Source: Desulfobulbus oligotrophicus (GTDB lineage: Bacteria > Desulfobacterota > Desulfobulbia > Desulfobulbales > Desulfobulbaceae). Taken from it: a stretch of DNA of 64,000 nucleotides. Each line of letters begins with the position of its first letter. Position 1 is the first letter of the stretch. Location of the stretch: NCBI RefSeq assembly GCF_016446285.1, contig NZ_CP054140.1, positions 2,904,001-2,968,000 on the forward strand. Direction: 5' to 3'. The notes beneath the pieces were generated by a model. It ran no database searches. It was not told the origin of the DNA and saw nothing but the letters and a program-made list of their open reading frames with translations. Both the position numbers and the translations under genes were made by a program. Below are positions 19,439 through 36,161 of the stretch, one piece after another.

Positions 19439-19525
19439 GCCCGGATGGCGGAATCTGGTAGACGCAAGGGACTTAAAATCCCTCGGCCTTTGGCTGTACG
19501 AGTTCGATTCTCGTTCCGGGCACCA
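19439..19525 (+). tRNA. tRNA-Leu (anticodon TAA), CCA encoded
   Basis: The acceptor arm GCCCGGA (19439-19445) pairs with TCCGGGC, followed by discriminator A and an encoded CCA. The D-arm is GCGGAATCTGGTAGACGC, the anticodon loop ACTTAAAAT gives anticodon TAA, a long variable arm (CTCGGCC, loop, GGCTGTACGAG) marks it as a class II tRNA, and the T-arm contains GTTCGATTC. Length is 87 bases with CCA. Its 3' half is duplicated at 23907-23958, so this gene is the integration site of a mobile element. Confidence 0.97.
19474..19525 (+). repeat. attL-like 3' part of tRNA-Leu (52-bp direct repeat, copy 1)
   Basis: From the anticodon loop to the CCA end, 49 of 52 bases are identical to 23907-23958, the first 35 without a mismatch. 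The repeat falls exactly in the tRNA part that site-specific integrases use. The distance between repeat starts is 4433 bases. Confidence 0.9.
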
Positions 19526-19533
19526 AAAAATAT

Positions 19534-19580
19534 AAGGGCCGGCCTCTTTATAGTTGAAGAGACCGGCCCTTTTCTTTTTC
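19534..19580 (+). terminator. Rho-independent terminator after tRNA-Leu
   Basis: AAGGGCCGG and CCGGCCCTT form the base of a stem that continues with CTCTT/AAGAG after one mismatch. An eight-base loop and a T-rich tail (TTTTCTTTTT) complete it. It begins nine bases after the tRNA. Confidence 0.9.
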
Positions 19581-19808
19581 TCTTCGCATCAGAGGTCCGA
19601 CCTGATACGCATGGCCGGTGCTGATACCAAAACATTGTGTCAGCAATACTTCGGCTCTGGATACCTTCCCTGGCAGATAACATTACACTCCGCCCATCTT
19701 CTCGACGAACACACACTGAAAGTTGTTGACCAGATCAATTCTCCCGACATTGGATAACATCAACAATGGTTAGGATTCATTACAGTGGTCATATGTTCGG
19801 TCAACAGT

Positions 19809-20669
19809 TTATACTGCCTTCCGCCCCAGCGACCATAGCATCATCCCGCGACAGCCATCACGATTGTCCAGAAATAGACCTTCCTGCAAACGGGTATCGA
19901 TGTATTCGGCAATCATGATCCGTACCGAATCCGTCATGGGCGTGAAATCCTCCATCGCCTTATCTCTGCTCCAGGAAATCGGCCTGCTCCAGTGCTCAAA
20001 GCGAAGTTCGGGACGGTAGCCAAGGGCATAGATCAGATTGAAGGGGTAGATGATATCCGTACCGTGGCCGATCATCTCCTCAGCAAAGAGTTTACGCCAA
20101 ACATCGCCGTACCATTGCCGCCAACTGCGACCGGCAAAGGCTGCCATGAAGCAGAAACCCGTTTCCGGCTTGCAGGCATTCATCATCTTGCAGAGCATCT
20201 CCGGACTATCAATTCCCGGAGTCATCGAGGCAAAAACCAAGTCAAAACGACCACGCCAGCCCAGGGCATCAAGGTCCACATCCTGCCAGGTCGACTGGTG
20301 GCAGGTGATGTTTTCAATCTGACCCTCCCTGACACGATTACCAAGGATTTCCAACATAGCACCAGCGGGTTCCAGGGCAACGAGTCGGCTGCATTCGGCA
20401 GCCATCGGCACAGCCCAGTTGCCAGGACCTGAGCCGATATCCAAAACCTCCATGGCGGCCGAAAGGGCACCGGTTTTCTTGAGCCATGCAATGATATCGT
20501 CCCGCTGGTCACAATTTTGACGTTGACCAGTACGTTCGGCAAAGTCAGCAGCCCTCTTGTTCCATCGGACAACAGGATCTTTCTCCTGCAAACGACGCTT
20601 TTGCCGGGACGATTCATGGATTGCTTCCTGCCAGCGGGCAGCAAAAAATTCAGCGGTATTTTCAGGCAT
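19809..20669 (-). CDS. Class I SAM-dependent methyltransferase
   Basis: A 286-residue Rossmann-fold methyltransferase. Motif I is LDIGSGPGNWAVPMA near residue 75, the acidic residue that grips the SAM ribose lies in VALEPAGAML near 97, and the post-I/II segment is FDLVFASMTPGID near 142. N- and C-terminal parts are helical and Trp-rich. The acceptor is unknown. It is transcribed away from a complete ABC importer 380 bases off, and both lie between the two tRNA-Leu repeats, so a shared pathway is plausible, for example modifying the imported compound. That link is inference from position only. Confidence 0.86.
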   Translation of the reverse strand: MPENTAEFFAARWQEAIHESSRQKRRLQEKDPVVRWNKRAADFAERTGQRQNCDQRDDIIAWLKKTGALSAAMEVLDIGSGPGNWAVPMAAECSRLVALEPAGAMLEILGNRVREGQIENITCHQSTWQDVDLDALGWRGRFDLVFASMTPGIDSPEMLCKMMNACKPETGFCFMAAFAGRSWRQWYGDVWRKLFAEEMIGHGTDIIYPFNLIYALGYRPELRFEHWSRPISWSRDKAMEDFTPMTDSVRIMIAEYIDTRLQEGLFLDNRDGCRGMMLWSLGRKAV

Positions 20670-21049
20670 CTGAGCACCTCAAGCAATGTGTTAAAAAAGG
20701 GTGAAGACCGGTTACTGCACACCTGGAGCATCTACAGCAGCAGCACCCCGGAACGAGCCGCCTGGGCCGGTATGAGCCGGTTACTACTGTGGGTCGATAT
20801 CCGGGCTTTGCGCCGGCGACCTTGGCCAAAAAAATAAAAATGATCCTTGAAGCTTTACGGCTTAAAAGCTAATAGTTTTTCTATCCTCCTGTTATTCTTC
20901 GAGTTCTGAAAGACTGGAGAAAGCCCTGGAAAAGAACCTCAGCCAATTGCGGGCTAACCGCATAATGTACCGACGATTTGATGCAACATGCCTGTAAACA
21001 AGAAAAAGCATTTGGCGGCTGCGTGGTCGTTGGTCAGCAAGGTCACAGT
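20670..21049. other. Divergent regulatory region between methyltransferase and ABC importer
   Basis: About 380 bases. No riboswitch was recognised. In particular the core of a TPP element, looked for because the binding protein is Thi5-like, is absent. A plus-strand frame ending at 20837 has a somewhat protein-like end (WAGMSRLLLWVDIRALRRR) and might be a worn gene remnant, but nothing supports a call. Confidence 0.4.
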
Positions 21050-21742
21050 ATGTCCATCATCTGCGATAATATTTCGTTCACATATCCTGCAGCAGAACAT
21101 CCGACCCTCACCGGTATATCGTTTGACCTGTCCACACCAGGATTCCATTCTTTCTTTGGCCCTTCTGGAGCGGGAAAAACCTCGCTGGCAAAAATCATAA
21201 CTGGTGACATTGGCGGTTATTCCGGCCGGGTGGCAACTGAGGGACTTAAACATCTCCTCTACTCCTACAACAAAGAACAGCTTCCTGGCTGGTCAAACGT
21301 CGGCCATCATTTATCGCGGGTCATATCATCGTCAATGTCTGCCGAAAAAGACAAGCTGGTGGAGATTTTCGGTTTGTCCGACTGCATCAAATCCCGTTTT
21401 GACCAATTGTCCATGGGCCAACAAAACCGTGTCAACCTGATACGTTATCTACTGCAGGACTGCGATCTGCTGGTCATGGACGAAAGCCTGGCCAATGTCG
21501 ATGAACGCACCCGAGAGAAGATTATTCTGGCCATCAAAGAAATGTTCCCTGAACGCTATTTCATCTATATTTCCCATAATGTCATGGAGGTCGCCAAATT
21601 CTGCGATTCGATCCTCGTTTTTCGCAGCAGCGGTACAGCTCAGCAAACCGTTATGATCCACGGCTGTAATATCGGTAAAAAAGAAATCCTCTCGCCCACA
21701 GCTCTGGATGCCACCCTGCTGGAGATCATGAATGCTGCCTAA
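21050..21742 (+). CDS. ABC importer ATP-binding protein (TauB/SsuB/ThiZ type)
   Basis: A 230-residue ABC ATPase. Walker A is GPSGAGKTS near residue 38, the signature is LSMGQQNRVNL near 126 (SMGQQ in place of SGGQQ), Walker B is CDLLVMDESLANVD near 146, and the switch histidine is in IYISHNVMEV. The Walker B glutamate is followed by S rather than the usual P. The Q-loop region (YSYNKEQLPGWSNVGHHL) resembles importers of taurine, sulfonates and pyrimidines. The start at 21050 has AAGG seven bases before it and is preferred over an in-frame ATG 24 codons upstream. Its stop overlaps the permease start by 11 bases. Confidence 0.9.
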   Translation: MSIICDNISFTYPAAEHPTLTGISFDLSTPGFHSFFGPSGAGKTSLAKIITGDIGGYSGRVATEGLKHLLYSYNKEQLPGWSNVGHHLSRVISSSMSAEKDKLVEIFGLSDCIKSRFDQLSMGQQNRVNLIRYLLQDCDLLVMDESLANVDERTREKIILAIKEMFPERYFIYISHNVMEVAKFCDSILVFRSSGTAQQTVMIHGCNIGKKEILSPTALDATLLEIMNAA

Positions 21743-22481
21743 ACGTGTTTTCCAGTTTTTAATTATCTATTTTCTCTTCATCAGCGGCCTGATCATCTTG
21801 AAATACAGCCTGCATCTTTCGGACTACGTCATTCCCGCACCATCTGCCATGCTGCACACGCTGATCGCAGAGTACCGCCAGTACAGTTTCGCCACGATCA
21901 ACACCATGACGATAGCAATAATCGGCCAGATACTGTCCGTTATAATGGCCTTCGTTATCGGTATAATGGGTCGTCAGTCCACCTGGCTCGGCTCGTTCAT
22001 CAAGGTCGCGGCCTATAATATCCAAGCGTATCCAATTGTAGCGCTTGCGCCGATCCTTTTCATTTTACTAGGCGATGGTTTTATCACCCGGCTGCTGATC
22101 GCCGCGATGATCTGTTATTTTCCGGTTCTTCTCTCTATATTAGGGATCATGTCGAAGCCGATTGACGATATCGAACATTTCTACCGGGTTACCGGCCGCA
22201 TGCGCTGGCAACTCGAGGTCAAGATCCGGACCTTTGAAAATCTAACGCAATTAACCACGGTTATCGCAGGCAGTGCCACGCTGGCAATGGCGGGAACTAT
22301 TGTCGGAGAATTCATTGCCGCCGAGGCAGGCATAGGATACAGCATTCGCATCGCCCTTTATCAGAGTGATCTGGGTAAAATTCTGATTGCCCTTTTTTTT
22401 ATCGGCATCACCATCGCCGTGTACCAGGCATTGCTGGAATTACTGGGAGCAACGGTCAGGCGAACCTGGGCAGGAAAATAA
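21732..22481 (+). CDS. ABC importer permease (SsuC/TauC/ThiX type)
   Basis: A 249-residue inner-membrane permease with about six helices and the BPD_transp_1 fold. The EAA-like coupling loop lies near residues 150-180 (FYRVTGRMRWQLEVKIRTFENL). The conserved GTIVGEFIAAEAGIGYSI segment near 195 is typical of the SsuC/TauC group. It overlaps the ATPase gene by 11 bases, indicating coupled translation, and precedes the binding protein by 54 bases. With them it forms a full importer for a small organic solute of unknown identity. Confidence 0.9.
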   Translation: MLPKRVFQFLIIYFLFISGLIILKYSLHLSDYVIPAPSAMLHTLIAEYRQYSFATINTMTIAIIGQILSVIMAFVIGIMGRQSTWLGSFIKVAAYNIQAYPIVALAPILFILLGDGFITRLLIAAMICYFPVLLSILGIMSKPIDDIEHFYRVTGRMRWQLEVKIRTFENLTQLTTVIAGSATLAMAGTIVGEFIAAEAGIGYSIRIALYQSDLGKILIALFFIGITIAVYQALLELLGATVRRTWAGK

Positions 22482-22535
22482 AATCTCCTTCGACAAAAAA
22501 CGAGAAATCAGGCTTACAATTTCAATAAAGCGAAG

Positions 22536-23537
22536 ATGAAGAATACAGCTCAAAGATGCATCCAGGCTGTTTTGCTGCTGTTGATGACGACCCTGCTTGT
22601 CACGAATACTGCGAGCGCGAGTGATACAGTCAGGTACCGCCTCAAATGGCTCCGCAACGCCAGTGTTGTTGGTGACTTGTACGCAGAAGCCGGCCATCTG
22701 TTCGAAAAGGCAGGGCTTGATGTTGAGATCAAACCAGGTGGACCGGAAAGAGATGCCATCCGGGAGCTTGAATTGGGACACGCTGATTTCGGGGTAGCTT
22801 CCGCCGACCAGGTACTGAGAGCCCGCGTCAAAGGTTCACCGGTGGTGGTAATCGCCCAGCTGTTCCAGGTTAATCCACTGCAATGGATGTACCGTCCGGA
22901 AAACATGAAGATCAATAGCCCGGCCGACTTAAAGGGAAAGGACATCGGGGTGACGTTCGGAGGGAACGACGAAACTATTATGCGGACTTTGCTGGCCGAA
23001 GCGGGACTCGGTGAATCGGATATAAAGCTGTTCAGCGTTCGCTATGATTACACACCGTTTTATCGACGCAAGATTCAACTCTGGCCGGTCTATCGGAACG
23101 CCCAGGGCCCTATCATCACCGCACAACTCAACAAAGTGGGAGAACAAATTACCTTTTTCAATCCCGCAGACTTTGGGGTGAAATTTGTGGCCAATTCCGT
23201 GGTAACCCATTCACGTACCCTGACGGAGAAGCCGGACTTGGTGCGGCGTTTCCTGGAGGCCCTGCTTTCCGGATGGCAACAGGCGCTTGATCCGAAAAAT
23301 GAAAACGAGGTCCTTGCAATCCTGCAGAAATACGATCCCGATACACCTCCTCCAATTCAGAAAGAGCAACTGAAGATCACACGAGAACTGGTCCAGCCGC
23401 AGCCCTCTCAAGCCATCGGCACAATTGACAAAGACGCCTGGGCACAGACCCAGCAAATAATGTTTAAGCAGAAACTGCTGCCTCAGCAAATCGATCTCAA
23501 GGAGATCCTCAAACCTGTCGGTACCACAACCAACTAA
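22536..23537 (+). CDS. ABC importer substrate-binding protein (NMT1/THI5-like)
   Basis: A 333-residue periplasmic binding protein. Residues 1-28 form a signal peptide ending TASAS. The NMT1/THI5-like fold follows: LKWLRNASVVGDLYAEAGHLF, GLDVEIKPGGPERDAIRELELGHADFGVASADQVL, LKGKDIGVTFGGNDE and the helical hinge-lobe region after residue 160. The group includes binders of hydroxymethylpyrimidine, taurine, nitrate and aromatic sulfonates, so the ligand is open. No lipobox is present. Third gene of the importer operon; no clear terminator follows. Confidence 0.88.
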   Translation: MKNTAQRCIQAVLLLLMTTLLVTNTASASDTVRYRLKWLRNASVVGDLYAEAGHLFEKAGLDVEIKPGGPERDAIRELELGHADFGVASADQVLRARVKGSPVVVIAQLFQVNPLQWMYRPENMKINSPADLKGKDIGVTFGGNDETIMRTLLAEAGLGESDIKLFSVRYDYTPFYRRKIQLWPVYRNAQGPIITAQLNKVGEQITFFNPADFGVKFVANSVVTHSRTLTEKPDLVRRFLEALLSGWQQALDPKNENEVLAILQKYDPDTPPPIQKEQLKITRELVQPQPSQAIGTIDKDAWAQTQQIMFKQKLLPQQIDLKEILKPVGTTTN

Positions 23538-23906
23538 GTGTACTGTGGTTGCAACAAAAAATTCATCTGTCCCGGTTTTTTCTTCTGTTGATGTGAGAGT
23601 TGGCACTCACCCACCCCCAATCCCGCTCAGTTTTGATTGCTTAATGGAAATATCAGGATAAACCGGAGGGAGTTGTCGCGACACCAGCAAAAAAAAGGAC
23701 GTGTTGCCGGATCAAAAAGACGCGAGGACTCCTGCCACCGAGACTGTCAGGAAACGACTGGAAAGGAAGCGTCAGCAGACACATACCTGGTAATCTTCTC
23801 GGACTAACCCTACAAGAACAGTGGAACAAAAATGGAACAAATTAGATTTTTTTAAAAAGGAAAATATAATTTTCCCATAATGTTCACTAAATAAATTCAA
23901 TACACG
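23538..23906. other. Intergenic tail of the importer island
   Basis: About 370 bases between the importer operon and the second tRNA repeat. No gene, integrase fragment or terminator was recognised. Confidence 0.45.
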
Positions 23907-23958
23907 TAAAATCCCTCGGCCTTTGGCTGTACGAGTTCGATGCTCGTTCCAGGCTCCA
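23907..23958 (+). repeat. attR-like partial tRNA-Leu (52-bp direct repeat, copy 2)
   Basis: Matches the 3' part of tRNA-Leu at 19474-19525 with three mismatches (positions 23942, 23951 and 23955). Two of the changes alter the acceptor strand (AGGCTCCA instead of GGGCACCA), and the 5' half of the tRNA is missing, so this is not a functional tRNA. It is best read as the far attachment site of an element integrated at tRNA-Leu, or as the junction between two tandem elements. Confidence 0.88.
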
Positions 23959-23970
23959 AGAATAGTGACG

Positions 23971-24009
23971 AAATCTCTGGATTTTCCATTTCGGAAAATC
24001 CGGAGATTT
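23971..24009 (+). terminator. Strong hairpin behind the partial tRNA
   Basis: AAATCTCTGGATTTTCC and GGAAAATCCGGAGATTT pair over 17 bases with a single mismatch around a five-base loop, followed by GACTTTTT. It stands where a terminator for a tRNA ending at 23958 would be, 50 bases before the next gene. Confidence 0.8.
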
Positions 24010-24059
24010 GACTTTTTGCTCCAAACTTGCTCCATTGCCTTTGGAGCAAGGAGCGCAAA

Positions 24060-25160
24060 ATGCGAAAAGAAGAATTCCGAACATGGCTGCGTCAAGTAAA
24101 AGGGCTGCAAGCAAGTACAGCTGGAAGCAGAGTAAGCAATTGTGAGCGTATAGAAGCTTTTGAAGGTGACTTGGACACTCTTTTTCAACAAGACGGGCTT
24201 GCTGCTCTTATTGACAAGCTTGTTTATTCAAAGGCAGACCAGCGGGCACATCTGTTGCCGCGTCATGCAATCCCCATAGATGGTGATATTTATAACGGCA
24301 CCGCAACTTTGCGCACGGCTGCACGTCTTTATCAAGAATTTGCTGGCTCTGATATCATGTCTGTCCATCCATCAGTTGCGCGCCCTCCCAAAAAACGAAA
24401 TAAAGCCACTGGGGAATGGCCCAGTTGGGACAGACCAACGGCAGAAACTACTTTGAAATTGACTAAAATGGTTATTCCGTATGTCCGCTTTCTTCATCCA
24501 AACATTGTGGAGCAGGTTGTCGCGGATAACGAGCTAAACAGGTTCCAGTGGCGGAAAAAATTGATAAGCCGAGGGATAGACCCTGAATTTTATCTGTGGG
24601 ATAGGTCAAGCTGTACATTTCCCGGTATTCGTCGTTATGCAGGCAGCAAAGAAATCGCATACTTCCGTGGGCAATTAAGTCAATCAGATGTGGAAATTTC
24701 AGACGCACTCAGACTTGATGACAACTCCTCTCCAAAACATATCTGGTCATTCATTTTTAGGGGCAAACCCTTTCAAAATTTTGGTCCAAAAGGGTACTCC
24801 ATTGCCCATCTGGCAGACCATAAAGACTATAAAAATAGAAGGGATGATGAGTTTGAGTCTGTCGGAACGGTGCCGGAAAAACTCTATGGGCTATTTAGCT
24901 GTGCATCTAATGCCGCTTATATCCCGGATACGTTATTAAAGCTGACAGATTTTAACATGCAGACCAGACTATTACTGCTGCACAAAGCCCAAAGTCTTTA
25001 CGGGGAGTTTTGTAATCTTCTTCCGCCAGCTTTTCGACTTAAACAGCAGGAGTCGTCAGAATGGCATATTGAAAATTTTGACTGGTGTCCTCCTGTTGGG
25101 GAAGGGGCTGAATTGGAGAGTTTCTTTATATTTCGGGCTGAAACAATTAACTCCTTATAG
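24060..25160 (+). CDS. Unrecognised protein with a possible HNH-like nuclease patch
   Basis: A 366-residue cytosolic protein that I cannot assign to a named family. Residues 1-90 are helical, with the feel of an integrase SAM-like or restriction-enzyme N-terminal region (FRTWLRQVKGLQASTAGSRVSN, then an IPIDG segment). Around residues 245-260 the segment GYSIAHLADHKDYKNR has the His-x3-Asp-His-Lys spacing seen in some HNH nucleases, followed by LYGLFSCASNAAYIPDTLLKLTD. A nuclease role is therefore possible but unproven. AAGGAG stands six bases before ATG 24060. It is AT-richer than core genes and lies directly beyond the partial tRNA, beside an integrase relic and a helicase, as island or defence cargo would. 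Confidence 0.72.
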   Translation: MRKEEFRTWLRQVKGLQASTAGSRVSNCERIEAFEGDLDTLFQQDGLAALIDKLVYSKADQRAHLLPRHAIPIDGDIYNGTATLRTAARLYQEFAGSDIMSVHPSVARPPKKRNKATGEWPSWDRPTAETTLKLTKMVIPYVRFLHPNIVEQVVADNELNRFQWRKKLISRGIDPEFYLWDRSSCTFPGIRRYAGSKEIAYFRGQLSQSDVEISDALRLDDNSSPKHIWSFIFRGKPFQNFGPKGYSIAHLADHKDYKNRRDDEFESVGTVPEKLYGLFSCASNAAYIPDTLLKLTDFNMQTRLLLLHKAQSLYGEFCNLLPPAFRLKQQESSEWHIENFDWCPPVGEGAELESFFIFRAETINSL

Positions 25161-25167
25161 GTATATC

Positions 25168-25807
25168 ATGGCAACCCTCCGTAAACGCGGCCCCTACCAA
25201 TGGGAAGCCCGTATCCGTAAAAAAGGCTATCCCACTACATGCAAGGCTTCTGAAACCAAAGCCGATGCCGAGGCTTGGGCTAAGGACGTCGAGAGCGATA
25301 TGTACAAGAACCTTTTTGTGCCCAGCAAAGAGACGGAGCAATATACGCTGAACGAGTGCCTGGATCGCTATATTGAAGAATATGTACCGAGCCTGAAACA
25401 CCCCAAACGAGAAGGGTACCGCGCAAGGTTTTTGCAAAAACACCCCATTGCCCACAGGATCATGGCAGCCATCCGCTCCAAGGATGTTGCCGAGTGCCGC
25501 TATCCCCTGTAGCCTTGAATGTGTTGAAGTCGCTACCCAAGCACAAAGACACTTACCTGGTATTTGGCGTAGATAAAGAAGAAATCACTTACGCCATGAA
25601 AGATACCCGAAAAAAACCGGGGTTGAGGACTTGCGCTTCCATGACTTGCGCCATGAAGCCACCAGTTGCTTCTTCGAAAATACTGACTTGTATGTGATGG
25701 AAATTAAGGCCATTACCGGGCATAAAACGCTGCAAATGCTAGTGCGGTATACATATTTGCGCACGGTGCGGCTGGCGGATAAACTGGTGGGAGCAAGGCG
25801 GGGATAG
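25168..25807 (+). pseudogene. Decayed tyrosine-recombinase integrase
   Basis: The first 110 codons (MATLRKRGPYQWEARIRKKG onward) are a normal phage-type integrase N-terminus with an AP2/Arm-like DNA-binding domain and the start of the core-binding domain. Near 25495 the frame jumps to PLSPVALNVLKSLPKHKDTYLVFG, so most of the core-binding domain and the first catalytic arginine region are deleted. A second shift near 25620 restores LRFHDLRHEA, then ITGHKTLQMLVRYTYLR with the catalytic tyrosine, ending at TAG 25805-25807. At least one large deletion and one frameshift make it inactive. It probably once served integration at tRNA-Leu, though it lies about 1.2 kb beyond the partial repeat. Confidence 0.87.
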
Positions 25808-28365
25808 TGAAAAACAAAACACGCATTATCATAAAGGGGAAAGATGAAACCGACAATATACTCGGTGTTTCCAAGCGTGGCTGTTTAGTTGATGTTACGT
25901 TCGCCAACGGTAAAACGTACTCCTACAATGAGAGCAATGTTCAGCTCAAAAGATCAGCCTTGTCAGATGATCATGCGCGAGAGTGTTTTGAATACCTTAA
26001 GCGAATTGCAAAACTCACCGGATTGCAAGTAGCCGAAGTGGGAAACACCTTGGCGAGCCAGTATGCAAAAATTGATTTCGTAGATCCCGACAGTATGCTT
26101 GGCACTTTTTTATCCGGCAATGCCCCACAACTTGCCGTCACAGAGTCTATATTTGCCGTTTACCCGTTTAATTTTAACGCAAGTCAAAAAAAGGCTGTTG
26201 AAAACGCGCTTGCGCATCCCCTTAGTGTAGTTGAAGGGCCTCCGGGAACGGGCAAGACACAGACTGTTTTGAATATTATTGCCAATGCAGTCATGCGCGG
26301 TGAAAGCGTTGCCGTTGTCTCAAGCAACAATTCGGCCACTGCTAATGTCTTGGATAAACTACAGAAATACGGCATAGATTTTATAACCGCCTATCTTGGC
26401 AATCAAGCCAATAAACAGGAGTTCATCAACTCGCAAAAGCCGCTTCCTAATTTAAAAAGCTGGAAGCTTCCCCAGGAAGAAGAGCGCACAATAAATCAGT
26501 CTCTTCACTCTTTACACGCTTCACTGAGCAAAATGCTCGAAAAAAAGAATAAATTGTCACAGATCAGGCAGCAGAACAGATCGCTGGAGCTTGAGTATAA
26601 ACGTTTTTGCGAATATGCAACCTACAACGATGAATTTATATCGCGGTACCTAAGGCCGACCAGCTCAGATATTGCACTTGAATTATGGCTTGAATGTGAA
26701 AAATATGCTGAACGTGGTAGGCCTCCTGGATTGTTTACCCGAATTGTGAATCGATTTCGAAGGGGTGTCGCAAACAAGTTATTCTATTCAGAACCCCCTG
26801 AAGTAATGGTTGCCTTGTGTCAAAGGCGTTGGTACGTGGCAAAAATTGATGAACTTGAGCGTTCAATGTCACAGCTGGATAAGAAACTTGAAGAATTTGA
26901 TTTTGATGAAAAAATGAGCGAATGTTCCGACCTGTCGATGAAACTATTTCGCAGCCGTCTTGCCGAGAAATATGCACGTACCGCCAGGACAATATTCGCC
27001 CTTAACGATTTATGGAAACACCCGAAGGATTTTATTGGCGAGTACCCGGTCATACTTGCAACCACATACTCTCTTCGCAGTAGTCTTTCCCACAAGGTAA
27101 TGTACGATTACGTCATCATAGATGAAGCCTCTCAAGTTGATCTTGCCACGGGCGCACTTGCTCTTTCATGCGCTAAAAAAATTATTGTAGTAGGAGATTT
27201 GAAGCAACTCCCTAATGTTGTTGATTCAGCTTTGGCGCGTCGCACCGATTCAGTATTTTCTGAATTTAATCTGCCTGAAGCATATCGGTACAAAAATCAT
27301 AGTTTGCTGGCGGCGGTGTCAGAGTTATTCCCACGAGTGCCTCGAACATTATTGCGTGAGCATTACAGATGTCACCCCCAAATTATAGAATTCTGCAACC
27401 AAAAATTTTATAATAATCAGCTTATTATTCTTACAGAGCCTACATCTGAACGTCGGCCGCTCATCGTATACAAAACTCCTCCGGGCAATCATGCCAGAGA
27501 ACGCGTTAATCAGCGGCAAATTGACATTATAAAAAATGAAGTCATTCCCCAACAATGCCTTGACGACAGCACCATTTCACTCGGTATTGTCACGCCGTAC
27601 CGCAATCAAACCAATGCGCTGCAAGAGGCTTTTCGTAACACTTCCATACAGGCAGACACGGTTGACAAGTTTCAAGGGCGCGAGAGGGATGTGATAATCC
27701 TCTCAACCGTTGACAACAAAATTTCAGACTTTGCAGACAACGCCAACCGCCTGAATGTTGCTGTTTCACGTGCCGTTAAACAGCTTATTGTCGTGATGAA
27801 CAGAGGGGATGATGCGCATGATACGAATATTGGCGATCTTGTGCGCTATATCAAGTACAACAACATGGAGATCGTTCATAGCTCGACATATTCTGTATTT
27901 GATTATCTATATGACAGTTATCGCAGTGAGCGGAATAGAATTTTAAAGAAGCGAAGAAGAATTTCAGAATATGACAGTGAAAATTTAATGTATATTATGA
28001 TCTGCGAACTGCTTGAGAATGAACGCTTTACGAAACTGAGTGTGGCGGAGCACGTTCCTCTGAAAATGATAATTCGAGATATAGAAAAACTCACCGAAGA
28101 CGAAAAGCGCTACGCTGGAAATATATTGACTCATGTCGATTTTCTTATCTTTGATAAACTCGGTAAAGTCCCCTTGCTTGCGATCGAGGTTGACGGGGTG
28201 GCCTTCCACAAGGATGGTTCGCGTCAGGCTGAGCGGGACAAGTTGAAAAATGGGATCTTTGAAAAATACGGCTTGCCGCTCATTCGTTTCAAGACAGATG
28301 GCAGTGGCGAGCGCGAACTACTCTACGCCAAATTGAACGATGTTTTGGCGCAGTCCACCCCATGA
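25807..28365 (+). CDS. SF1 (UPF1/Dna2-like) helicase with C-terminal nuclease-like domain
   Basis: An 852-residue protein. Residues 1-50 form a small beta domain. Walker A GPPGTGKT lies near 144-151, and a long charged, partly coiled insertion spans 210-400. Helicase motif II is YVIIDEASQVD near 440, followed by VVGDLKQLP, REHYRCHPQI near 515, VDKFQGRERDVIILS near 615 and LNVAVSRA near 648. Residues about 770-845 contain VPLLAIEVDGVAFH, RDKLKNGIFEKYGLPLIRF, the D/E pattern of DUF559/DUF2726-type PD-(D/E)xK-like nucleases. Helicase-nuclease pairs of this kind are frequent in phage defence. The GTG start shares its first base with the integrase stop codon. Codon use is AT-rich, so the gene is probably acquired. 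Confidence 0.86.
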   Translation: MKNKTRIIIKGKDETDNILGVSKRGCLVDVTFANGKTYSYNESNVQLKRSALSDDHARECFEYLKRIAKLTGLQVAEVGNTLASQYAKIDFVDPDSMLGTFLSGNAPQLAVTESIFAVYPFNFNASQKKAVENALAHPLSVVEGPPGTGKTQTVLNIIANAVMRGESVAVVSSNNSATANVLDKLQKYGIDFITAYLGNQANKQEFINSQKPLPNLKSWKLPQEEERTINQSLHSLHASLSKMLEKKNKLSQIRQQNRSLELEYKRFCEYATYNDEFISRYLRPTSSDIALELWLECEKYAERGRPPGLFTRIVNRFRRGVANKLFYSEPPEVMVALCQRRWYVAKIDELERSMSQLDKKLEEFDFDEKMSECSDLSMKLFRSRLAEKYARTARTIFALNDLWKHPKDFIGEYPVILATTYSLRSSLSHKVMYDYVIIDEASQVDLATGALALSCAKKIIVVGDLKQLPNVVDSALARRTDSVFSEFNLPEAYRYKNHSLLAAVSELFPRVPRTLLREHYRCHPQIIEFCNQKFYNNQLIILTEPTSERRPLIVYKTPPGNHARERVNQRQIDIIKNEVIPQQCLDDSTISLGIVTPYRNQTNALQEAFRNTSIQADTVDKFQGRERDVIILSTVDNKISDFADNANRLNVAVSRAVKQLIVVMNRGDDAHDTNIGDLVRYIKYNNMEIVHSSTYSVFDYLYDSYRSERNRILKKRRRISEYDSENLMYIMICELLENERFTKLSVAEHVPLKMIIRDIEKLTEDEKRYAGNILTHVDFLIFDKLGKVPLLAIEVDGVAFHKDGSRQAERDKLKNGIFEKYGLPLIRFKTDGSGERELLYAKLNDVLAQSTP

Positions 28366-28911: not shown

Positions 28912-28951
28912 TCAGAGTAGAATTTCCGAGAATAAGCAAGATGGGGATTTT

Positions 28952-29143
28952 ATGATGAAAAAGTCAGGATTCATGGATAGTCAAATTTTGGCGATTTTAA
29001 AGCAGTCCGAGAATGGGATACCCGTTCCCGAACTTTGCCGCGAGCACGCCATAAGTAGTACGCCTTTTGACAAATGACGGGCCAAGTTCGGCGGTATGGA
29101 TGCATCCATGATGGCTCGCATGAAAGAGCTGGAAAAGGAAAAT
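28952..29143 (+). pseudogene. IS3-family orfA transposase remnant
   Basis: The frame begins MMKKSGFMDSQILAILKQSE and continues NGIPVPELCREH, the helix-turn-helix N-terminus of IS3-family OrfA. The codon for the conserved Trp after FDK is TGA (29075-29077), then RAKFGGMDASMMARMKELEKEN follows in the same frame. After that the similarity stops and a toxin-like sequence takes over. OrfB and the right end are absent. The left end may lie near the C-run at about 28890, where the relaxase relic breaks off. Confidence 0.85.
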
Positions 29144-29413
29144 GTCCATACCCTGATCAAAGAAATTCTGTCCATGGATGGTGAGTTCATTGTCTCCAGA
29201 CATGCAAAAGAAAGGATGAAAGAGCGGGGTTACACCCTGCATGATGTTGAATATATTCTTTTGTATGGAACCATTACAGGTAAGCAGTTCGTGAACAGTG
29301 CCGGCAACTGGAGATATACAATAACTGGCCCAGATCTGGACGGTACTGACGGAAGTGCTGTCACTGCTATCATTCATAGAAACGCAATTGTTCGTGTGAC
29401 GGTTCTTTCTTAG
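29096..29413 (+). CDS. DUF4258-domain protein, probable toxin of a type II toxin-antitoxin pair
   Basis: Up to 105 residues. The DUF4258 core is FIVSRHAKERMKERGYTLHDVEYIL, with the later strands GNWRYTITGPDLDG and TAIIHRNAIVRVTVLS. DUF4258 is a RelE-like small fold often paired with MqsA-type antitoxins, as here. The first 16 codons come from the IS3 orfA remnant, which is in the same frame, so the start codon appears to be borrowed from the IS: ATG 29096, 29108, 29111 or 29120 are possible and none has a good ribosome binding site. The native start seems lost, so expression may be weak. The stop overlaps the ribosome binding site of the antitoxin gene ten bases on. Confidence 0.75.
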   Translation: MDASMMARMKELEKENVHTLIKEILSMDGEFIVSRHAKERMKERGYTLHDVEYILLYGTITGKQFVNSAGNWRYTITGPDLDGTDGSAVTAIIHRNAIVRVTVLS

Positions 29414-29423
29414 GAGGAAAAAA

Positions 29424-29951
29424 ATGAAAATTTGCGCACTGTGCAATGGCCCTGTTGAGGTCATCAAGGACAAGCCATACGAATATACGGAAAGCGGTCT
29501 GGATGTTGTCCTTTATGGTATCACCCAGTACCAGTGTACCAGCTGTGGTGAAACTTTTGCGGCTCTCCCGAAAATCCAGGATCTTCACAAGGTGATAGGA
29601 AAAGATATCTGCGCCAACAAAAAGGCCTTGCTCAAACCCGAAGAAATTATATTCCTTCGCAAGAACATGCATCTCAAGGCAAAAGATATGGCCAAGATAT
29701 TGGGAGTAAACCCCTCTGTTTATTCTCGGTGGGAAAACGGAAAAAAGACGATCAGTGATCCTTATGACAGGCTGCTTCGCATGGTATATATGGCATGCAC
29801 GGCAGAGAGAAGCGACTGTAACGACGCGCTGACAGTCAATCTTTTCAAAAACCTTTCTTCCAAGCGGAAAGAGATTGAGCAGCCCAGTCAGATTATCCTC
29901 AACCCGCAAGAATGGCTGCTTGGAGATGTTACCGCCAGTGGGGTGTCCTGA
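29424..29951 (+). CDS. MqsA/YgiT-type antitoxin with zinc finger and helix-turn-helix
   Basis: A 175-residue protein. Residues 1-45 hold a YgiT-type zinc finger with two CxxC pairs (CALC and CTSC). A central helical part with LLKPEEIIFLRKNMHLKAKDM leads into an Xre-like helix-turn-helix (MAKILGVNPSVYSRWENGKK, about 90-115). MqsA-type antitoxins bind and block the toxin through the zinc domain and repress their operon through the HTH. AGGAGG lies seven bases before the ATG, much better than anything for the toxin gene. The C-terminal 40 residues are extra compared with E. coli MqsA. Confidence 0.88.
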   Translation: MKICALCNGPVEVIKDKPYEYTESGLDVVLYGITQYQCTSCGETFAALPKIQDLHKVIGKDICANKKALLKPEEIIFLRKNMHLKAKDMAKILGVNPSVYSRWENGKKTISDPYDRLLRMVYMACTAERSDCNDALTVNLFKNLSSKRKEIEQPSQIILNPQEWLLGDVTASGVS

Positions 29952-32883: not shown

Positions 32884-35800
32884 TCAAGACCCCACAGAAC
32901 CCGATGCGATCCGCTGACAGCCGGGACCTTGTATCTGACTTTGCCCACCGGTTCGGGGAGAGATCTGTATCTGCGTACTGATCCGGTCTTTGAGGGCGGC
33001 AACATGCGATATGACACCGATCAGTTTACCGTCCTGCTGCAGGCCCGAAAGAGCCTCCAGCGCCGTATCCAAAACCTCTTCATCCAGGGTGCCGAACCCT
33101 TCATCCAGAAACAGTGAATCCACCCGGACATTTTTGCCGGCCATCTGAGACAGGCCCAGTGCGAGCGCCAGGCTGACGATAAAACTCTCGCCACCGGAAA
33201 GATTTCTGGTGGACCGGACCTCGCTTGCCTGATAGGTATCGATCACATCAAGATCAAGCGGTTGTTTTTCATTGCGAATCAGCAGGTAGCGATCGCTCAT
33301 TTTCTGCAGTTGCCTGTTGGCGTATCCGATCATGATGTCAAAGGTCAGCCCTTGGGCAAAGTTCCGATATTTTTTCCCGTCAGCCGAACCGATTAACTCG
33401 TGCAGGTTCTCCCACCGGCGACAGTCTTTTTTCTGGGCCGCTATCATTGCCCGCCTCTCCTGTATCCGCTCCTTTGCAACGGCATGCTCTTTCAACCTGT
33501 GTTCAAGACCGGCAATGGCATCTCGCGACTCTTTGAGCAATGCTTCACAGCGTGTACGTTGCAGCTCAAGTTCCTGCAAAGATTTATCAGTTACCTGTCG
33601 ACTCATCTCCCTGGCTAATCGCTTTTCCCGGTCCTCCTGCCGGGCGTTGAGGTCGGTCTGTCGATCGTCGAGCTTCTTTGCCTGTGCAGACAGTTCCGCC
33701 CGCCTGACAGCAGGAAGCATTGCCTCGACAACCTGCGCTTCATGGGTAAAACCTGCAGATCGGAGCTCAGCAAGAAATTCCACTTCGTGTTTGTGCAGCT
33801 CCCCCCCACGCTGGTTGATGTTTTTTTGCAAAGATTCAATATGTGCCAGTACAGCCGTTTGCTGCTGCTGCACCGCACTGTATCGCTCCCTGGCCAGCTT
33901 CTCAGCTCTTTCAGCATCAGCCACACCCCTGCTGAGACGCCTTTCCTCAGCATCAGGATCTGTCGTGCCGTACAGTGCTTTGCGCTCATCACTGCTGCTG
34001 GTCAATGCTGTCTTTAATACCTCCAGACGCTTTGTTTTTTCAATCAGGGCTGCATCCTGAGCTTCAACAATTGCATCTAACTGCTTGATTGCACCAGTGC
34101 TATCGACAAGCAGCCTTGCGAGTTTATCTTTTTGTTTCACCTTATCCAGCCAGGCATGCAGCCGTGCCCGAAGTATCTCCACAAGTGTTGCAACGTCGTA
34201 TTGACCGATATCAGGGATACCCAGCGGCTGCAGTTTACCCGCCACAATCTGTCGGGATGCGGCAACAGCAGTACAGAGTTTTTCCAGGCTCTCCTTTGCC
34301 ACGGCACATGTTGTTGCAGCGGTCTTTTGCGCATGGACAGCTGCTGACTCAAGCTTTTCAGCTTCTGCCAACCTCTCCCGAGCCAGACCTTCAGCTTTTT
34401 CAAGTTTTCTGATGACAGTCTCCTGATCCTCAGCCTTATTGATCAGCCGGGTCAACGCTGTAATCTGCTCTTCAAGCTCATGAACAGCTGGAACATTCCC
34501 CTTGGCAAACGGATGTTCCAGCGCACCGCACAACGGGCAGGCTCTGCCATCTTCCAACCTGGCCCGGTACTCTTCAAGCTCGCTTATCCGTGCCACATAG
34601 GCCATCTCGCGAAGCAGGCCATCCTTTTCAGTACGATATTCACGCAGCTGTCGATCTCCCAACATCTGCCGGAGGCTATCCCTGCCCTGCTGCAACGCTT
34701 GCACGGCTTTTTCCAGCACTTTCTTGTGGCCGCAAATATGCTTTTGATATCCGGCAAGTAACGTGATTGCCTCTTTCTGCTTGTTCACCGCCTGTTCATA
34801 ATCGCGTTCTTTTTGAACAAACTCCTGCTGCTGTGCACATAAAGTTTGCAGCTGTTCTTCAACACCGGTCAGCCCACTGATCAACCACTCATCCTGTGCA
34901 TGCTCGCTGAGGTATTGATCTGCCTGCTGCAGTTGTTGTTCAGTATGGATACGTTTGTGCTGCTCCTGGGCAAGGGCCTGCCTGCTAGCCTCGATTTTCA
35001 GCGCATCCTGCCTGCACTCCTCTTCACCTTCTGCAACAGTCTGCTGTTGATCAGCAAGCCTCTGATCAAGGAGGCGGACCCTTTGCAGTACAGGTGCAGC
35101 TTTTTTCAGCTCCTCTTTGACACGCATGGTCTGCTGCTCTGCTGCCTTGTGTTCCCGGGCCTGATGCGTGACAGCGGCTTCCAGTTGTGGAAGCATCTTT
35201 TCCTCTCTGGCCAGCTTCCCCTGATCGTCTGCCTGCTGTTTGCGGACAGCGATCAACCGTGCATAGGTACCATCGAGCAAGGCTGCCTGCATTGCCTGAT
35301 TAAGCCTGTCGCGCTCCGGCTGAAAGGCGGCACTCTCCTTGTGCAGCCTGTTTGCCTCATTGATCAGATCAATACGTTCTTTTTGCAGGGCATCGATGAT
35401 GTTGAGCCAGGCGATACCTTTTTCTGCCACCGCAACCCTGGCCGTGCGTTCCTGAGCCTCTTTCTTCTTTATTTCAAGCGTCTGCCCTACCTCCTGTTCC
35501 TGTTCAGAAGTTAACACAACGATTCCCGCTGTCTCTGCTTCAAGAACAGCCAACTTCTCCCGTGCCTGCTGCTTTTGTTCATGAACCCGCACAGATATCC
35601 GGCTGTAGATTGTCGTGCCTGTTATCTGTTCCAGGATCGGCGCCCGATCATCAGGTGCAGCCTGGAGAAATGCGGCAAAACCGCCCTGGGCCAACAGCAT
35701 GGATCGGGTGAAACGGTCAAAATCCATACCTGTTGCCGATTCAATCTGTTCCGCCACCTCTCTTATCTTTGACTCAACAATTGCACCTGTATCAGCATGG

Positions 35801-36150
35801 GCGATTTCATGTTTCGGAGCCTGAAGCTCACCATCCGGACTTCTCCGTGCCCGGTGCTGGCTCCAATGGCTGCGAAAACGTCCGGCCTGCGTTTCGAAAG
35901 TCACCTCGGCAAAACACTCACCGGTCCGGCGGGACATGATCTCATTTGTGCTTTTGGTGACCCTGTTCAGGCGGGGAGTCCGCCCGTACAGCGCAAGACA
36001 GACAGCATCAAGGACCGTACTCTTACCGGCCCCCGTAGGGCCGGTGATGGCAAAGATCCCGTCGGCTGTATAGGCGGGATGCGTCAGATCTATCTCCCAT
36101 TCACCGAACAGTGAATTGAGATTTTTGAAACGTATCTGCAGTATTCTCAT
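32884..36150 (-). CDS. sbcC: SbcC-type SMC-like ATPase of the SbcCD nuclease
   Basis: A 1088-residue Rad50-like protein. The N-terminal ATPase half has RFKNLNSLFGEWEIDL and Walker A GPTGAGKST near residue 37. Long coiled coils fill about 190-480 and 560-860, joined by the zinc hook CPLC near 527. The C-terminal half has signature LSGGESFIVSLALALGL and Walker B SLFLDEGFGTLD near 1020. With SbcD it cleaves hairpins, palindromes and protein-blocked DNA ends. The ATG at 36150 has GAGAGG six bases before it and starts 11 bases after the sbcD stop, so the two are co-transcribed. Confidence 0.96.
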   Translation of the reverse strand: MRILQIRFKNLNSLFGEWEIDLTHPAYTADGIFAITGPTGAGKSTVLDAVCLALYGRTPRLNRVTKSTNEIMSRRTGECFAEVTFETQAGRFRSHWSQHRARRSPDGELQAPKHEIAHADTGAIVESKIREVAEQIESATGMDFDRFTRSMLLAQGGFAAFLQAAPDDRAPILEQITGTTIYSRISVRVHEQKQQAREKLAVLEAETAGIVVLTSEQEQEVGQTLEIKKKEAQERTARVAVAEKGIAWLNIIDALQKERIDLINEANRLHKESAAFQPERDRLNQAMQAALLDGTYARLIAVRKQQADDQGKLAREEKMLPQLEAAVTHQAREHKAAEQQTMRVKEELKKAAPVLQRVRLLDQRLADQQQTVAEGEEECRQDALKIEASRQALAQEQHKRIHTEQQLQQADQYLSEHAQDEWLISGLTGVEEQLQTLCAQQQEFVQKERDYEQAVNKQKEAITLLAGYQKHICGHKKVLEKAVQALQQGRDSLRQMLGDRQLREYRTEKDGLLREMAYVARISELEEYRARLEDGRACPLCGALEHPFAKGNVPAVHELEEQITALTRLINKAEDQETVIRKLEKAEGLARERLAEAEKLESAAVHAQKTAATTCAVAKESLEKLCTAVAASRQIVAGKLQPLGIPDIGQYDVATLVEILRARLHAWLDKVKQKDKLARLLVDSTGAIKQLDAIVEAQDAALIEKTKRLEVLKTALTSSSDERKALYGTTDPDAEERRLSRGVADAERAEKLARERYSAVQQQQTAVLAHIESLQKNINQRGGELHKHEVEFLAELRSAGFTHEAQVVEAMLPAVRRAELSAQAKKLDDRQTDLNARQEDREKRLAREMSRQVTDKSLQELELQRTRCEALLKESRDAIAGLEHRLKEHAVAKERIQERRAMIAAQKKDCRRWENLHELIGSADGKKYRNFAQGLTFDIMIGYANRQLQKMSDRYLLIRNEKQPLDLDVIDTYQASEVRSTRNLSGGESFIVSLALALGLSQMAGKNVRVDSLFLDEGFGTLDEEVLDTALEALSGLQQDGKLIGVISHVAALKDRISTQIQISPRTGGQSQIQGPGCQRIASGSVGS

Positions 36151-36161
36151 CAACAGCCTCT

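Follow-up and report, generated by a model that had tools for sequence, protein, structure and literature searches.

A rare protein with a predicted recombinase-clamp-like head and a helicase-nuclease, probably independent cargos of a decayed element at tRNA-Leu in Desulfobulbus oligotrophicus

The stretch of 64,000 nucleotides analyzed here (contig NZ_CP054140.1 of Desulfobulbus oligotrophicus, positions 2,904,001 to 2,968,000 of the forward strand; hereafter the window, taken from a single-contig genome of 3.10 Mb) carries two genes separated by the wreck of a tyrosine integrase, one for a protein of 366 amino acids (aa), here called p1, and the other for an 852-aa superfamily 1 (SF1) helicase (Table 1). 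The locus raises the question of what p1 is and of whether the two genes belong together: a preliminary description had read p1 as HNH-like and the two as a candidate defense pair, either once-adjacent parts of one system or two independent cargos. Our analysis indicates that p1 is a rare protein linked to restriction-modification (RM), with a head predicted to resemble the DNA clamp of recombinases and an unclassified, probably catalytic tail, and that the two genes were probably carried as separate cargos by an element that is now dead.

The p1 open reading frame (ORF), read from an ATG at 24060 (an alternative, longer start is a TTG at 24027), is real and open, as the preliminary description had it. 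Purifying selection is clear in the comparison of the loci L023 and L036, which is free of synonymous saturation, with proportions of nonsynonymous (pN) and synonymous (pS) differences of 0.108 and 0.579; between the window and L022 the values are 0.167 and 0.729, the latter near saturation. The frame is open in three loci in which the integrase is broken (window, L022, and L023). The patch of residues described earlier for the protein is present, but its spacing is His-x2-Asp-His-Lys (H250-L-A-D253-H254-K255) rather than the His-x3 form originally given. H250, D253, H254, and K255, together with N259, R260, E264, and N284, are invariant in all six aligned p1 proteins.

The C-terminal domain, p1C, was recovered in nine loci: the window, contigs of Desulfovibrio metagenome-assembled genomes (L022, at 72%; L023, at 65%; and L025), an Arenibacter locus (L024), the genomes G667 (L029/L036) and G482 (L030/L037), and two IMG/VR contigs (L026 and L046). 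Remnants occur in G706 and, near a tmRNA, in G590. The family is rare, being found in 1 of 95 relatives, 1 of 395 genomes of the phylum, 6 of 247 genomes in the family of G475 (remnants counted), and, within the family of G476, 2 of 249 (one of them through the N-terminal domain only); a search of the G476 phylum with a p1C model recovered 1 of 395 genomes. There is overlap among these samples, all of which include either the genome of the query itself or that of an already known relative. Repeated further scans of viral contigs gave the two phage contigs (L026 and L046) or nothing. Phage records yielded no match for p1 or p1C; in plasmid records, p1 matches were confined to the N-terminal part, except for one reaching residue 203, and there were none for p1C.

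Genes of RM systems adjoin p1 in three of the nine p1C loci. The Arenibacter p1 lies beside a type I system (methyltransferase [MTase], specificity subunit, and restriction endonuclease [REase]), and those of L026 and L046 lie beside two different type II RM cassettes with cytosine MTase, REase, and Vsr-type genes. Between the latter two contigs, the p1 proteins are 58% identical and the genes flanking the cassette are 82% and 69% identical, the MTases share 24% identity along part of their length, and no match was obtained between the two REases. As a separate observation, these related phage contigs keep p1 and its flanks while carrying differing cytosine-MTase/REase cassettes at the same place (L026, 7129 to 12348; L046, 6685 to 11817). 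The neighbor of p1 in G667 is a DUF4145-like protein (22.5 bits, below the cutoff of 23.1), with a tRNA-Ser beyond; L037 and L025 have no evident partner gene.

The N-terminal domain, p1N, is found on other proteins, as recovered by tblastn or profile searches. It heads NucS-type proteins in L040/L057 and L058; the protein of G895 (L040 and L057; NucS_C, 24.3 bits against a cutoff of 24) is encoded downstream of genes read as AlbA-like and type I REase, and in Nitrosospira p1N is found on a NucS-annotated protein with an N-6 DNA methylase nearby. It also heads AAA proteins in L033, L034, and L059, near RM or nuclease genes. The sphingomonad examples are called McrB-like from matches to AAA_5 and an REase-type profile (L034) and from annotation, and the McrB-like protein of L059 lies beside genes for a site-specific MTase, a DEAD/DEAH helicase, and a restriction endonuclease. 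In Qipengyuania, p1N is part of a 240-aa protein whose gene has a RecB-like nuclease on one side and an exonuclease on the other. On this N-terminal head, p1C is thus replaced by a known nuclease domain, that of NucS, from which we infer that p1C is likewise a nuclease.

Structure prediction provides a lead on p1N. AlphaFold models were computed for p1 with five sequences and for p1C alone in a second job with six. Residues 1 to 100 of p1 are modeled with confidence, the block means of the predicted local distance difference test (pLDDT) being 71 to 90. When 131 Foldseek chains were given a second look with VIA using the predicted model of residues 1 to 99, the top 16 rows were tyrosine recombinases, e.g., the phage Brujita integrase (5vfz; Z = 7.5; root mean square deviation [rmsd], 2.6; 78 residues aligned) and an archaeal Xer protein (4a8e; Z = 7.0; rmsd, 2.8; 74 residues aligned); Cre-type entries scored from 4.4 to 3.7 and the first nonrecombinase row scored 3.4. 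Two relatives gave subthreshold matches to Phage_int_SAM in Pfam (E = 0.24 and 0.11), and p1 itself had no recombinase match there. The likeness of the modeled p1N to the core-binding domain of tyrosine recombinases is a fold-level lead, on account of the low Z scores and of a failed sequence-profile test (see below).

From these lines we arrive at the reading that p1 is a two-part, restriction-type enzyme that acts on DNA and is carried by mobile elements, with the helicase as a second, independent cargo, a reading to which we give an even chance of being correct. The N-terminal helical clamp, of the kind found as the core-binding domain of tyrosine recombinases, would grip DNA and p1C would cut the DNA so gripped, cleavage being suggested by the invariant His-x2-Asp-His-Lys patch and by the NucS domains that replace p1C on the same head. 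The protein might act alone or alongside an RM system, and its role on the mobile elements that carry it would be to keep out competing DNA. The helicase, for its part, would be driven by ATP along invading nucleic acid while its tail, a DUF2726 domain of the PD-(D/E)XK type, cuts. A more far-reaching version, which we hold only tentatively and consider somewhat doubtful, is that restriction enzymes have taken over a core-binding domain of the tyrosine-recombinase type as an exchangeable module for gripping DNA, its partners being NucS-type nucleases, McrB-like motors, and, in the case of p1, an undescribed nuclease fold (p1C).

Several results weigh against this reading. As regards p1N, Foldseek itself gave no match at an E value of ≤0.001; the VIA comparison reexamines the 131 Foldseek chains and is not itself a search, and by the tool's own warning a Z score below 8 (below about 13 for helical bundles) may reflect a common arrangement. 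The sequence profile of p1N scored 11.5 in hhalign against the neighboring integrases, with the 12 best of 200 shuffles at 14.8 to 18.9; a sequence relationship of p1N to these integrases is accordingly not supported, its score lying below those of many shuffles. As regards p1C, no profile (Pfam, PADLOC, NCBIfam, or PHROGs) or PDB sequence identified it, and the models have a mean pLDDT of 49 for the whole of p1 and 42 for p1C alone, with most positions beyond residue 100 below 50. The p1C region scored 9.8 in hhalign against 15 HNH_2 domains (23 loci were taken, of which 8 were dropped since a motif filter did not find the domain), under the ten best of 100 column shuffles (12.4 to 15.6). For six of the nine p1C loci, the stretch read contains no RM genes; the contigs of L022 and L023 are short. 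Finally, the helicase of the window is shorter at its N terminus than its relatives and may be impaired.

The designation of p1 as HNH-like found no support in any search that we made. Comparison with Pfam, PADLOC, and NCBIfam gave no HNH family match, PHROGs returned one family of unknown function (E = 0.37), and seven members of the set A5 recovered only Couple_hipA in Pfam (E = 0.12). A likeness that we had read between AHLADHK...YGL...N and the spacing of HNH_2 was rejected by the hhalign test described above; the whole of p1C scored 20.6 against HNH_2 over 7 columns at another place, a value obtained without a shuffle control. Searches against defense models and structure prediction, both proposed earlier for p1, thus gave no HNH match and no confident C-terminal fold, the C-terminal models being of too low confidence to show that a fold is absent. 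The VIA second look with the low-confidence p1C model returned a single row (Z = 2.1), and the low pLDDT leaves no nuclease fold demonstrable for p1C.

Among the alternatives, the one that survives best, though we regard it as unlikely, is that p1 functions as a homing endonuclease standing on its own or as an accessory of the integrase (e.g., an excision or target choice factor) placed between attachment site and integrase. In the window, L022, and L023, p1 stands behind a common leader and 7 to 9 bases before the start of an integrase of the same family, which is broken in all three, and the predicted fold of p1N is itself recombinase-like; also in its favor is an integrase of the same genus at the same tRNA without p1 before it. 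However, six of the nine p1C loci have no adjacent integrase in the stretch read (judged from translations and, for L036, also by tblastn), and the presence of p1N on AAA and NucS-type proteins, together with the RM neighborhoods, points to restriction.

We consider it more unlikely still that p1C is a DNA- or nucleotide-binding domain devoid of nuclease activity, for instance, in a regulator or immunity partner of a nearby RM system. The lack of any nuclease profile matching p1C would fit such a role, as would a patch whose spacing is unlike that of canonical HNH motifs and the occurrence of p1C with a different N terminus in L037 and apparently without p1N in L025 (a contig with Ns). Yet the eight patch-region residues are invariant in six of six proteins, and it is nuclease domains, those of NucS, that occupy the place of p1C on the shared N-terminal domain.

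A single defense system, with p1 and the helicase as its two parts split by the integrase, is very improbable: the two genes are consecutive on the same strand, the GTG start of the helicase at 25807 shares one base with the integrase stop, and both families occur in defense-type neighborhoods, but the helicase had no match in any of the eight other p1C-bearing genomes or records, and p1 had no match in the helicase-bearing G007 (in which a NERD protein, 74.3 bits, lies behind the helicase) and G341. The helicase query was run without a positive control on the five genomes or records of L022 to L026; for G667, G482, and the L046 record, the positive controls G000 and G007 matched. Co-occurrence was thereby found only in the window's own genome, one of nine, with the qualification that two of the eight other bearers are virus records and may be fragments. 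G341 falls by its number within the phylum set searched with p1 (handles G095 to G473), where only the window's own genome matched. We therefore favor the second of the two earlier proposals, two independent cargos, over parts of one system. The suggested defense character holds up for each gene separately, through the RM neighbors of p1, the presence of p1N on NucS-type and McrB-like proteins, and the neighborhoods of the helicase, but not for the two as a pair.

The helicase itself is of a known kind, and the earlier view of an 852-residue helicase with a nuclease-like tail is borne out. It matches AAA_11 (99.7 bits), AAA_12 (99.3 bits), and DUF2726 (49.0 bits) in Pfam, all above the cutoff, which places it among SF1 helicases with a DUF2726 domain, and its best PADLOC match is the MkoA helicase core (E = 1.5 × 10−52). 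It lies under the cutoff of every NCBIfam family listed, including IGHMBP2 (TIGR00376; 169.4 bits against 348.9), Hhe (NF042953; 115.6 against 2,000), and ProA (NF058533; 124.2 against 1,500). Walker A, DEASQ, QGRE, and SRA motifs are kept in six aligned helicases, the window's included, and D778, E794, D796, Q807, R810, D811, and K814 of the DUF2726 tail are invariant in six of six; we take these motifs to mark helicase and nuclease function, respectively. Mokosh systems are defined by a PLD-type nuclease domain or partner alongside a helicase, and Pfam gave no PLD family among the 25 matches listed of 28 for the helicase, nor for p1, the integrase piece, or the two probable toxin-antitoxin genes of the window (see below).

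The helicase query matched 15 of 95 relatives at an E value of ≤0.001; apart from the genome of the query, long matches came from G007 alone (44% over residues 304 to 846 and 36% over 8 to 303), the others being below 60 bits and on the helicase core. At an E value of ≤1 × 10−40, 267 genomes of the phylum gave two matches, the own genome and G341, where the gene is split and lies near a tRNA-Arg. In Parabacteroides, a relative is preceded by a methylase/TIR cluster with a type IIG-like MTase and a bSEFIR-like protein. A search with the DNA of an Escherichia coli relative recovered a relative in 643 of 5,426 complete E. coli genomes, which makes the family testable in laboratory strains; in the two genomes read, it lies between a POTRA-domain gene and ibrA/ibrB-like genes, and the E. 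coli relatives are on what look like islands. Of 612 plasmid records that match the helicase, 6 cover at least 80% of the query; 7 phage records match, none covering as much, and no helicase was confirmed in viral contigs. A side observation concerns G007, in which a truncated copy of the helicase N terminus is found upstream of the full gene and beside a PLD-like fragment, as read from translations (L038, 688 to 1071 and 1781 to 2350).

Table 1. Features of the tRNA-Leu locus and the block that begins at its second 3'-end copy (positions in the window)
Feature	Position	Strand	Basis
tRNA-Leu(taa), integration site	19439..19525	+	ARAGORN; Rfam tRNA
tRNA-Leu 3' end, repeat copy 1	19471..19529	+	59-nucleotide direct repeat
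tRNA 3' end copy 2, probable left attachment site of the element	23904..23962	+	92% identical repeat
Stem with a T run directly behind copy 2, probable terminator	23971..24009	+	17-pair stem, consensus scan only; aligned region in L022
p1, 366 aa: N-terminal domain (about 1 to 100) and C-terminal domain p1C (about 118 to 366)	24060..25160	+	ORF, relatives, structure prediction
Tyrosine integrase remnant: N-terminal residues (about 111) and C-terminal pieces, middle lost, frame changed	25168..25807	+	tblastn, with the L023 and G001 integrases as queries
SF1 (Upf1/IGHMBP2-like) helicase, 852 aa, with a nuclease-type domain (DUF2726) at its C terminus	25807..28365	+	Pfam, sequence, alignment

The anatomy of the locus is best explained if the block from 23904 onward forms the left end of an integrative element, now decayed, that had inserted at tRNA-Leu, comprising, in order, an attachment repeat, a terminator, p1, the integrase, and the helicase. 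The preliminary description had placed a decaying mobile block at the tRNA; a second copy of the tRNA 3' end (59 nucleotides, 92%) indeed lies about 100 bases upstream of p1, but the tRNA gene itself is 4.5 kb away. The window holds only these two copies, and neither a third copy nor a right end of the element was found within it. The reported integrase wreck between the two genes is likewise real. Against the 352-aa integrase ORF of G001, the remnant shows 62% identity over 111 N-terminal residues and 77% over 65 C-terminal ones; a further piece of 44 residues (45%; tblastn) lies in a different frame, and about 116 middle residues are absent (approximately positions 133 to 248 of a relative); lacking a complete set of N-terminal, core-binding, and catalytic parts, it is classed as a remnant and not as an intact tyrosine integrase.

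The tRNA-Leu locus is an integration hotspot in the genus. When 13 stretches lying downstream of pdxJ in members of the genus were scanned with ARAGORN, 12 proved to contain tRNA-Leu(taa), and integrase ORFs lie 3' of it in 4 of the 11 stretches listed for genes (G011, G005, G009, and G001), identified by reading their translations, with an alignment check for G001 only. L084, L085, L086, and L088 show the pdxJ-tRNA-Leu locus with differing integrase ORFs at the same tRNA. Between the two 3'-end copies of the window (19530 to 23903) are genes for a methyltransferase, an ABC transporter, and an NMT1-type binding protein. No ORF of this block was read as an integrase, and only the methyltransferase was recovered in the 13 same-genus stretches (G015, 76%); the block may be a second insertion at this tRNA, one without an integrase. 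Downstream of the helicase, a short ORF (28950 to 29077) resembles the start of an IS3 orfA, and a DUF4258 protein followed by an MqsA-type antitoxin (29096 to 29951; TIGR03830 above the cutoff) forms a probable toxin-antitoxin pair. Elsewhere, the genome has two SbcC-type genes, so named from reading, that are 64% identical (window, 32884 to 36153; G000:C1:697824-701066).

If p1N is indeed a recombinase clamp that restriction enzymes have put to a new use, it would add a DNA-gripping module to the known reader domains and would provide a search handle for unannotated RM-linked enzymes. For its part, p1C, unmatched in the four family libraries and among the PDB sequences searched, would be a candidate for a new nuclease family. 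Among open-licence PMC papers, none was identified on p1 or on this helicase architecture, and the nearest known systems each differ in a definable way. The helicase shares its SF1 core with Mokosh MkoA/MkoC, Hhe, and IGHMBP2-type helicases (169.4 bits for the last); it differs from them in having a C-terminal DUF2726 domain where those have PLD or DUF3320-type parts. The predicted helical fold of p1 residues 1 to 99 resembles the core-binding (SAM-like) domain of tyrosine recombinases (5vfz, 4a8e, and Cre), from which p1 is set apart by the lack of a Pfam recombinase match or of significant sequence-profile similarity. Modification-dependent restriction enzymes, as portrayed in PMC7641849, have a DNA-reading domain of the EVE or DUF3578 type fused to a nuclease or to McrB. 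The likeness to them lies in the presence of one small domain, p1N, on both nuclease-type and AAA proteins near RM genes; unlike the EVE-type barrel, however, p1N has a predicted all-helical, recombinase-like fold. PMC3710099 describes DUF2726 domains of the REase fold attached to AbiJ-NTD3 proteins, as well as SF1 helicases bearing Vsr-type REases. The feature held in common with those cases is an REase-type domain in a conflict protein, whereas here it is DUF2726 itself that is fused to a Upf1-like helicase.

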